NCBI GenBank assembly: GCA_031272245.1 | Contig: JAISUE010000020.1 | Span: 1 to 47,416, forward strand | Length of the DNA stretch: 47,416 nt | Direction of reading: 5' to 3' | Source: Bacteroidales bacterium | Lineage (GTDB): Bacteria; Bacteroidota; Bacteroidia; Bacteroidales; P3 | Part shown: positions 352 to 16,995 of the stretch, piece after piece | Layout: every line of letters starts with the position of its first letter | Numbering within the stretch: the first letter of the stretch is position 1 | Program-made: the position numbers and the translations under genes | Notes under the pieces: model-generated | The model's database searches: none | What the model was told of the DNA's origin: nothing | The model's input: the letters and a program-made list of their open reading frames with translations, nothing else

Positions 352-426
352 GGTCTGGTAGTTCAGCTTGGTTAGAATACATGCCTGTCACGCATGGGGT
401 CGCGAGTTCGAGTCTCGTCCAGACCG
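352..426 (+). tRNA. tRNA-Asp (GTC)
   Basis: The cloverleaf folds fully. The acceptor GGTCTGG pairs with CCAGACC. The D arm is 361-378. The anticodon stem CATGC/GCATG closes a loop with anticodon GTC at 387-389. The T arm GCGAG/CTCGT holds the TTCGAGT loop. The discriminator is G426, as expected for tRNA-Asp. CCA is not encoded. It is a single-gene unit with its own promoter and terminator. Confidence 0.95.
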
Positions 427-1734: not shown

Positions 1735-1810
1735 TACCCCGTAGGGGATTTGAACCCCTGATTTCAAGAATGAAAATCTTGCGTCCTAGGCCAGACTAGA
1801 CGAACGGGGC
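1735..1810 (-). tRNA. tRNA-Glu (TTC)
   Basis: Read on the minus strand, the acceptor GCCCCGT pairs with ACGGGGT (G-T at the first pair). The anticodon loop carries TTC. The T arm contains GGTTCAAATCC and the discriminator is A. CCA is not encoded. The gene leads directly into rpsT. Confidence 0.95.
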
Positions 1811-1960: not shown

Positions 1961-2350
1961 GGGGGTGGGTTGGTTTTGACAGCAAGGTAAATGATTTTGT
2001 AAGCACGCAGGCACAGGTAACAAATGCCTTAAATAAGGTTGCAAACAATTAATTGGCGAAAATAATTACGCTTTTGCAGCTTAACCGAAATAGAGTAGGT
2101 TAGCGTATGGACACAAAGTTGTCCAGCAAGACATCTCTCCAAAGCCTTCGCTCTGCGGCTAAGGATTAAGAGGTGCTCGGATAGCAGAGATAGTTATTTA
2201 AGAGTTTCGATTGAATAACAAAATTTTAGAAACTAAGCTTTGAATAGGGTGTTTGTCCTCAGTTCATTGACGAAAACTAATGACAAAATAAGCGTGTAGA
2301 AAGCAAAGTTGTTTCTTGTTTGGACCAGGGTTCGAATCCCTGCACCTCCA
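1961..2350 (+). ncRNA. ssrA: tmRNA (SsrA), one-piece
   Basis: The 5' end GGGGGTG pairs with CACCTCC at the 3' end to make the tRNA-like acceptor stem (one G-T). The conserved TTTTGACAGC follows the 5' arm, and a T arm with GGTTCGAATCC sits just before the 3' arm. The tag reading frame at 2055-2084 encodes GENNYAFAA and then TAA; the resume codon may be one codon upstream. Length is about 390 nt, normal for a one-piece tmRNA. It rescues stalled ribosomes and tags nascent chains for proteolysis. The end of the tag is AFAA where Bacteroidetes usually have ALAA. Confidence 0.95.
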
Positions 2351-2408
2351 CATCAACATAACATAGATAATGTACAAAAGCTATTCCATCTAAAAGAGTA
2401 AGAGAAGA

Positions 2409-14285: not shown

Positions 14286-15830
14286 CTATTTTGCAAAATT
14301 AACAGATCTTGTTTCGCGAATAACTGTTACTTTTATCATGCCGGGAAACACCATTTCGGTTTGTATCTTTTTTGACAAATCAAATGATAATTGGCTTGCT
14401 TCAGCATCAGTAAGTTTGTCTGCGGCTACAATAACACGCAATTCACGTCCCGCTTGTATGGCATAAGTCTTAAGAACACCATTATACGACATTGCTAATT
14501 CTTCCAATTTATTAAGACGGTTAATATAGGCTTCAACAACTTCGCGTCTTGCTCCTGGTCTTGCTCCGGAAATAGCATCGCAAACCTGAACAATAGGAGC
14601 ATAAAGACTATTCATTTCTGTTTCATCGTGGTGAGAGCCAATAGCATTACATATTTCCGGTTTCTCCTTAAATTTCTCTGCAAGTTTCATCCCTAAAAGT
14701 GCATGTGGTAATTCAGGTTCATTATCTGGTACTTTCCCTATATCATGTAAAAGCCCTGCACGCTTTGCTATTTTAGCGTTAAGACCAAGTTCCGAAGCCA
14801 TAGTCGCACATAAATTGGCAACTTCACGAGAATGTTGTAAAAGATTTTGTCCATAAGAAGAGCGATATTTCATTTTACCAACCATCCTTATCAATTCAGG
14901 GTGAAGATTAACTATACCCAAGTCTATACATGTTTTTTTACCTATTTCAATTACTTCCTGTTCTAACTGTTTCTTTGTTTTTGCAACAACTTCTTCAATA
15001 CGTGCCGGATGGATACGCCCATCTGTTACAAGCTTATGTAATGAAAGACGTGCAACTTCACGACGAACCGGGTCAAAACATGACAATAAAATAGCGTCAG
15101 GGGAATCATCTATTATGATTTCTACACCAGTTAAACTCTCTATTGTTCTGATATTACGACCTTCACGTCCTATAATTCTGCCTTTTATTTCTTCATTTTC
15201 AAGATTAAAAGCTGTTACTGTATTTTCTATTGCAACTTCTGCAGCTGTACGTTGAATAGATTGAACGATTATTTTTTTTGCTTGTTGATTTGCAGTAAGT
15301 TTTGCCTCTTCAACAATATCCATAATTTTGCCTGCAGCTTCTGAACGTGCTTCGTCAACAAGTGTTTCTACTAACTGAGTTTTTGCCTGTTCTGCCGATA
15401 AACCTGCTATTTGCTCTAATCGTTCTACACTTTGACGATAAGTTTTTTCTACTTCCTGTTGACGTGCTGCAAGTCTTTCTTGTTGACGATTAAAATTTTC
15501 TTTTGCAGTTTTAAATTCATTGTCTTTTTTTTGTAGTTCTTCCAATTTTTGACTTGCTGACCGTTGCTGCTCTTTAATTTTATTTTCAATTTGAGCAATT
15601 TTGTTATTACGCTCTTGAATTTGTTTGTCATGCTCAGATTTCATTTGAAAAAATTTTTCCTTCGCCTGCAACATCTTTTCTTTCTTAATGATTTCTGCTT
15701 TATCCTCCGCTTCCTGTAATACTTTCAAGCTACGTTTTTGCAATTTTTTACTGAAAACAGTTGTGGCAACAAGTACTCCTATTCCCAAGCCAACAACCCC
15801 TGTAATGATTCCTATTATTAACTCATTCAT
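14286..15830 (-). CDS. rny: Ribonuclease Y
   Basis: This 514-residue protein has the full RNase Y layout. There is an N-terminal transmembrane helix (about 5-25, with [15 protein letters not shown]). A long coiled coil follows (about 30-190), rich in Lys, Glu and Gln. Then comes a KH RNA-binding domain with [15 protein letters not shown] near 215, and an HD domain with LLHDIGK near 360 and SHHDETE near 400. It is a membrane-anchored endoribonuclease that starts mRNA decay. The gene is the last of a minus-strand block with zapA and the 6S RNA. Confidence 0.95.
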
Positions 15831-15889: not shown

Positions 15890-16082
15890 AAAAAAGAACT
15901 GCACCAACAGACAAATGGAGTTGGTCAAACTCCGATAAATTACGTTTTGAGAGCCTTGTGTATCAAACTTCTACCGCCAAATTATGGATTCCAAAAAGGA
16001 ATTGAAGCCTGTTTTCCTCACAATGAGCTTACTCGGTTCGTGTTTAGTGTTGAGTTTGCAAACTGTTTTGTCTAATTGATGC
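15890..16082 (-). ncRNA. ssrS: Probable 6S RNA
   Basis: The 290 bases between zapA and rny hold no reading frame but have dense potential structure on the minus strand. AGACAAA near the 5' end pairs with TTTGTCT near the 3' end, extended by CAA/TTG, to give a closing stem. Inside are two hairpins, ATTCC-TTTTT-GGAAT and GGAGTT-TGACC-AACTCC, leaving a long rod with internal bubbles. 6S RNA genes lie next to zapA in many bacteria, and Bacteroidales have a recognised 6S homologue of about this size. It would bind RNA polymerase holoenzyme and damp transcription in stationary phase. The ends are estimates; the 3' end is placed at a T run. Confidence 0.72.
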
Positions 16083-16121
16083 AGCTATATAAGTCTGTTT
16101 ATTTCAAAGAACTGCTATTTA

Positions 16122-16418
16122 CTACCTTCTTATATCAATTTGTTCGTTTAGAAATCTATCTAATTGTTCAAGTCTTTGAGTTACTTCTTCGTCCTTAAAA
16201 TTACGTTTTTCTTCTATTTTGATATATTGTGTTACATATTCCAATAACACCATCGCTAATAAATCCTGTTTATCCTTATAAGCATACAATCGTGCATAAC
16301 CTTCTAATTTTTCTTTGATAAGATTGGAAGCATTACGAAATACCTCTTCCTCATCTGTCTGAATTTTTACCTTATACTTTCTATCGGCAATCGTTATCGT
16401 TACAGGTAATTCTTCCAT
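16122..16418 (-). CDS. zapA: Cell division protein ZapA
   Basis: From the ATG at 16418 the protein has 98 residues. The ORF-track start is a TTG two codons earlier that overlaps the preceding stop, so the ATG is preferred. The N-terminal part (VTITIADRKYKVKIQTDEEE) is the ZapA globular domain, and the rest is a long helix that forms the coiled-coil tetramer. ZapA bundles FtsZ protofilaments at midcell. The upstream coiled-coil gene ends 2 nt before this start codon, so the two are tightly linked. Confidence 0.88.
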   Translation of the reverse strand: MEELPVTITIADRKYKVKIQTDEEEVFRNASNLIKEKLEGYARLYAYKDKQDLLAMVLLEYVTQYIKIEEKRNFKDEEVTQRLEQLDRFLNEQIDIRR

Positions 16419-16420
16419 AA

Positions 16421-16711
16421 TCAATCGTTATCACTTGTTATCATTGTTATACATTTATTGATCTTACGCACCAACTCATTTATTTTTGTTTTGCTTTCGG
16501 CAATATCCGAATGCGTTATTATTCCTATATTTATTTGCTTTATTTTTTCCTCTAAATGTTTATTTTGTTCTATCGTTTCTAAAATTTGTGATTCCAAAGT
16601 TAAAATACGTTCCTTCAAAACAGAATTTTCAATTTTTAAATAGCCGTTTTGTTCAACAATTTTTCTTGATTTATAGTCTATTGCAGAGACTAATGATTCA
16701 ACCTTGTCCAT
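16421..16711 (-). CDS. Small coiled-coil protein upstream of zapA (ZapB-like candidate)
   Basis: From the ATG at 16711 the product is 96 residues, almost entirely helical, with heptad-like spacing (VLKERILTLESQILETIEQ). The longer ORF in the track starts upstream of a -7 box, and its extra hydrophobic N-terminus is therefore unlikely to be made. Size, coiled-coil character and linkage to zapA suggest a division-ring partner such as a ZapB analogue, but I see no sequence signature that proves homology. A septation role is inference from context. Confidence 0.6.
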   Translation of the reverse strand: MDKVESLVSAIDYKSRKIVEQNGYLKIENSVLKERILTLESQILETIEQNKHLEEKIKQINIGIITHSDIAESKTKINELVRKINKCITMITSDND

Positions 16712-16735
16712 CTTAAAATCATAGTTAACGTGTTG

Positions 16736-16743
16736 CAAAAATA
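16736..16743 (-). promoter_or_regulatory. -7 element of the coiled-coil/zapA/6S/rny unit
   Basis: On the minus strand TATTTTTG lies 24 nt upstream of the ATG at 16711. It falls inside the ORF-track extension and therefore decides the start. Confidence 0.7.
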
Positions 16744-16995
16744 CAAAAAAATTATCAATAGATAAAATAAACAAACAAATAAATATTAAATAGTTCATTT
16801 TATAAATCTTTATAGTGTTCTACATTTAACGTTATTCTAAATACTTAAAATTATATTATTAAAAAAAATGTGCAAACTCAACAAAAAATATTCAGCTATA
16901 TTTCTAATAAAATTAAAAGATTGTTTTAAAATTTTTTTATCAAATAAAAACTGAAAAAAACAGCGGTTTTTAATTTAAATATTTTAAGTTTTTAG

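Follow-up and report, generated by a model that had tools for sequence, protein, structure and literature searches.

6S RNA, a small RNA that holds RNA polymerase, is among the most widespread regulators in bacteria. In the beta- and gamma-proteobacteria its gene, ssrS, is reported in the order ZapB-ZapA-ssrS (PMC7641849); in E. coli, as at the locus reported here, it directly follows zapA, with the difference that E. coli has fau downstream instead of rny. The Bacteroidota forms are kept in Rfam as two separate families: 6S-Flavo (RF01685), whose members with intact flanks lie between zapA and rny and, like the window copy, carry ACUCAACA and GGAGUUU in their two arms, and whose model spans only the inner 108 positions of the RNA; and Bacteroidales-1, also termed 6S-Bacteroidales (RF01693). 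Both 6S RNA and its pRNAs have been detected experimentally in B. thetaiotaomicron (PMC7366714). In the open-access literature we found no paper linking either boxA or rny with 6S RNA in Bacteroidota, and an earlier mention of the zapA-6S-rny order in Bacteroidetes is possible.

The locus considered here lies in a contig of a Bacteroidales bacterium (JAISUE010000020.1), the whole analysed stretch of which, 47,416 nucleotides, we refer to as the window. The genes of the locus are all on the minus strand and comprise, in the direction of transcription: a 125-aa protein (16421..16798) that overlaps the start of zapA; zapA itself, coding for the cell division protein ZapA (16122..16424; PF05164, E 1.7e-15); the Bacteroidota-type 6S RNA gene (15890..16085, with approximate ends, the 3' end falling within a T run); and rny, coding for RNase Y (14286..15830; PF12072, E 8e-38; TIGR03319, E 1e-190, scoring 634.6 bits where the cut-off is 454). 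The 125-aa protein gives coiled-coil-type (leucine zipper) matches to PF15294 and NF009640 that are weak and under cut-off, and it may be called ZapB-like by position only. A preliminary description of this DNA had placed a probable 6S RNA at 15890-16082, which is correct to about 3 nt. It had also remarked on the neighbourhood of zapA, an adjacency that we see across Bacteroidota and in E. coli, and on the position directly before rny, which is borne out as a conserved gene order.

At the curated gathering thresholds, Rfam gives no match at the 6S locus and recovers only a tmRNA (1961-2353, plus strand; RF00023, 147.4 bits) and two tRNAs (352-426, plus strand; 1735-1810, minus strand) in the window. 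Only under an E-value threshold do matches appear at the locus itself. RF01693 and RF01685, the models of the covariance search that had been proposed as a check, rank first there: both match the 15890-16085 region over the full model, and both fall under their cut-offs (31.3 bits against 60 and 31.1 bits against 85, respectively). The two models also overlap on the same RNA in related genomes. Other weak Rfam matches nearby (LhrC, bxd_4, SNORD36, Fluoride and GcvB) were rejected as chance. The sub-cut-off scores mark a limit of the library models, a score above the curated cut-off being no defining feature of 6S RNA as such.

As a test of homology independent of these sub-threshold matches, we aligned the zapA-rny spacers of related genomes. 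RNAalifold on this alignment yields 19 pairs, with 94.4% of cells paired and double changes at 13 pairs; none of 500 shuffles reaches any of these measures, and when the partner is slid the pairing amounts to at most ~43%. A covariance model, R1, scores the window RNA at 147.3 bits, while a held-out model, R3, built solely from other genera and including no sequence of the window's genus, still scores it at 112.7 bits (E 5e-24), which settles the homology in favour of the 6S identity first suggested for this RNA. R3 finds all 12 of the 6S-Flavo loci with zapA/rny flanks, as well as four RF01693 loci, at which the matches of R1 and R3 have coordinates identical to those of RF01693 itself. As R3 finds the loci of both families, RF01685 and RF01693, though separate in Rfam, are most likely two descriptions of a single RNA, to which the window copy also belongs. 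R3 has no match to E. coli ssrS. Second R1 matches in two assemblies (G000:C57, in the window's own assembly, and G006:C7) are ~90 nt in length, were read as protein-coding sequence and were rejected. The locus encodes an RNA whose structure is conserved by covariation, which shares homology with both 6S-Flavo and Bacteroidales-1 and which is fixed between zapA and rny; that it is the 6S RNA of this Bacteroidales bacterium, in a diverged form, we hold to be very probable.

The zapA-rny intergenic region folds on the minus strand into a rod with a minimum free energy of -54.8 kcal/mol; 200 dinucleotide shuffles give a mean of -38.3 (sd 3.7; z -4.4), with none as good. Fold and covariation together display a 6S architecture of ~190 nt: a closing stem, a central bubble and a terminal stem-loop. 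The closing stem is formed by nine base pairs between its 5' arm, CTGCATCAA (16076..16084), and 15899-15907 in the 3' arm, TTGGTGCAG, which together with the T run occupies 15890..15907; six T in a row follow the stem. Across 29 relatives, 97.4% of the outer four pairs are maintained, with double changes from CG to UA. Judging from its sequence, this stem with its T run is probably also the intrinsic terminator of the transcript. It encloses a further stem, AGACAAA (16067..16073) paired with TTTGTCT (15909-15915), which the preliminary description had taken as the closure of the rod: the stem is present, but the outermost pairing is the 9-bp one. In three congeners the inner stem reads CAGTAAA/TTTATTG, CAATAAA/TTTATTG and CGGTAAA/TTTGCTG, so that compensatory changes have kept the pairing.

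Beside the bubble lies the rod helix CAAACTC (16052..16058) with its partner GAGTTTG (15926-15932), paired in 98% of cells; one of its pairs in the alignment, 35-198, occurs as five pair types with double changes in 19/29. The 5' strand of the central bubble, as given by the fold, is AACACTAAACACGAA (16037..16051), and the AAACTCAACA flanking it is among the most conserved tracts. By analogy with known 6S RNAs, this strand is presumed to be the pRNA template region. The GGAG tract has two alternative conserved pairings, one with the 5' arm (98%) and one with the CUC of the 3' arm (92%), an arrangement consistent with, though no proof of, a switch that would collapse the bubble. A third, local hairpin can be formed in the window by GGAGTTTGACCAACTCC (15917-15933, minus strand) with GGAGTTT, which also pairs with the 5' arm, and a similar local hairpin is visible in several relatives.

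The RNA is found directly before rny in 51 of 61 related genomes. Four more (G038, G055, G057 and G059) have none there and instead possess a strong RF01693 copy elsewhere in the genome; these strong members, while found by the same models, differ from the window copy in having their own promoter and in being without the GTTCTTT motif discussed below. In the last three of the four, the region before rny holds a short terminator-like hairpin only. 6S RNA was undetected in the remaining genomes of this set: two that are incomplete and four of a single genus, g2 (G004, G015, G025 and G034; loci L024 and L026-L028). The g2 genomes, which belong to the same family, have a zapA-rny gap of ~250-360 nt with no detectable 6S in it and no R1 match elsewhere in the genome; their 6S may have been lost or may have diverged past recognition. 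Beyond this set, the zapA-rny position also holds for all 12 of the 6S-Flavo loci with intact flanks and for at least 18 of the class-wide loci. The RNase Y loci taken from public genomes number 80; at 58 of these, among them the loci of Butyricimonas synergistica DSM 23225 and Pedobacter sp. B4-66, the RNA stands just upstream of rny on the same strand, at a median distance of 51 nt. By contrast, rny is without a 6S match at seven loci of Prolixibacteraceae type (L204-L206, L215-L217 and L221; Mariniphaga, Draconibacterium, Sunxiuqinia and Maribellus).

Between the zapA stop and the 6S gene lies a boxA-like element, GTTCTTTGAAATA (16100..16112, minus strand). The consensus of the element before 6S is ACGTTCTTT(G/A)AAATA. 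In the 120 nt that precede 6S, its GTTCTTT core is present at 39 of 74 loci, against a shuffle mean of 0.53 and with no copy on the opposite strand. Among the RNase Y-anchored loci, 46 of 57 have the core upstream of 6S, where background would give ~1.4 and the opposite strand has 3. In both sets, which were drawn separately and overlap in part, the motif lies between zapA and 6S. About one-third of the loci examined are without the core. Most of the other genera in the window's family are among them, and at several core-less loci in this family the 6S begins a few bases past the zapA stop. With the boxA-like element included, the series zapA, boxA-like element, 6S and rny appears typical of many Bacteroidota lineages.

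The 16S rRNA of the window's assembly was not found; hence, we drew 16S leaders from relatives within the class. Of the 27 Bacteroidia 16S leader regions counted, a few of which are a second match within one genome, 21 have the core, and it mostly follows a complete TTG/TAnnTTTG promoter there. Exact matches of the motif are found, too, in the rRNA spacers behind 16S or tRNA genes. The boxA consensus of gamma-proteobacteria is GYTCTTTAANA (PMC5725501), and the element matches this gamma-proteobacterial pattern except that a G often stands at the first A of boxA. On account of its presence in 16S leaders and rRNA spacers and of this match, we read the element as a putative boxA: it resembles the antitermination signal of the rRNA operons, at which NusB/S10 act, and differs from it in preceding 6S rather than rRNA. 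The survey of boxA targets by its own statement left out non-coding RNAs (PMC5725501). GTTCTTTGAMATA has one occurrence in this 1.8 Mb assembly. Genome-wide, the pattern CGTTCTTTRAMATA and its reversed control have about the same frequency, and most matches of the pattern outside the rRNA spacers and one 6S locus look like chance; the boxA claim therefore rests on position and not on abundance across the genome. A search of this assembly, which is 95.8% complete, did not find NusB, probably owing to an assembly gap; three congeners have it, and it is present in 56 of 60 relatives. No boxA-like match is seen in the E. coli stretch. As a separate observation, CGTTCTTTGAAATA has three copies per genome in G229 and G190 (L154 and L156, plus two further places in each); the two copies read have a similar downstream stretch (...TTTGGTAGCCCAATG...), and these places may represent a repeat or a further RNA led by a boxA.

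The presence of the element is set against that of a promoter. We sought the consensus TTG-N17..21-TAnnTTTG up to 400 nt upstream of 6S, so that all calls of absence pertain to this one consensus: it is absent from 73 of 74 and from 57 of 57 zapA-rny loci. Among relocated 6S genes, the six clearest (L001-L004, L140 and L146) show the opposite pattern, each having a consensus promoter that ends 17-28 nt before 6S and none having the GTTCTTT motif. The picture is mixed for the other copies that are relocated or unplaced, with L138, L139 and L147 having the motif and lacking the promoter. Where the boxA-like element precedes 6S, it follows zapA, with no promoter match in between. A scan with a sigma-70 promoter model returned fewer sites than in shuffles and was discarded. 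In genus g3 (L029, L034 and L035), the zapA frame overlaps the 6S 5' arm by ~30 nt or more, its stop codon sitting in the conserved TTTGTAAACTC tract of 6S, an overlap that fits co-transcription.

These observations bear on three other explanations. That the fold is a chance one, or the spacer a functionless, terminator-rich one, could be argued from the sub-threshold Rfam matches, but the covariation, the score of the held-out model and the synteny leave this with a negligible probability. It is likewise improbable, though to a lesser degree, that the RNA is no free 6S and instead acts in cis, as a structured leader of rny (or as a zapA trailer) that serves, for instance, in the stability or autoregulation of RNase Y. 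At the zapA-rny loci it does precede rny in every case and with matching orientation, ending ~50 nt before the start codon; further, in B. subtilis RNA polymerase associates with the rny mRNA (PMC11077062), and RNase Y is described as autoregulating its own mRNA (PMC10303841). Nevertheless, in several lineages homologues lie away from rny with promoters of their own, and the 6S/pRNA pair of B. thetaiotaomicron speaks for a free RNA. A cis role may still exist beside the 6S function. The link between RNase Y and 6S raised in the preliminary description is a possibility based on conserved adjacency, the gene order being consistent with read-through into rny.

The GTTCTTT motif could, alternatively, be part of a 6S promoter, namely the -33 TTTG of Bacteroidota, rather than a boxA, as TTTG is often part of it and its usual distance to 6S is 20-50 nt. 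Still, no -7 element of the form TAnnTTTG comes after it, its copies in 16S leaders are mostly preceded by a complete promoter, its exact matches extend to rRNA spacers, and the relocated 6S genes with clear promoters are without it; we accordingly rate a promoter part as unlikely, if less so than a cis-acting leader.

In the best reading, a zapA transcript shielded by Nus antitermination is the precursor out of which 6S is cut; the boxA and co-transcription part of this reading, drawn from sequence, stands at about an even chance. Under this reading, 6S at the zapA-rny locus would usually lack its own promoter and be transcribed from the zapA unit; the boxA-like leader would recruit NusB/S10, and by virtue of this the untranslated RNA would be spared from Rho termination. 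The zapA-6S precursor would then be cut to the mature 6S; the closing stem and T run would end most transcripts, and rny would be fed by read-through or by a separate promoter. As in 6S biology elsewhere, the rod with its central bubble would mimic an open promoter and bind the housekeeping RNA-polymerase holoenzyme, and pRNA synthesis would release RNA polymerase from 6S. We extend this, with confidence evenly divided for and against, to much of the class Bacteroidia: a promoterless 6S would be processed out of a zapA-6S-(rny) transcript on which boxA/Nus antitermination of the rRNA type acts, and lineages with a relocated 6S would have gained a promoter and lost the boxA.

The 6S RNA itself is of a known type; nevertheless, many Bacteroidota copies are missed by the Rfam library models, two Rfam families are indicated to be one, and the conserved genomic address of the RNA is fixed. 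The unexpected part is the boxA-like leader, along with the loss or gain of a promoter with position. If the proposed scheme is true, the supply of 6S would depend on the rRNA-synthesis machinery, and read-through would couple the sequestration of RNA polymerase to the level of RNase Y. Should boxA act on 6S, the antitermination machinery of rRNA would also make a global inhibitor of RNA polymerase, which would change the view of how 6S is supplied.
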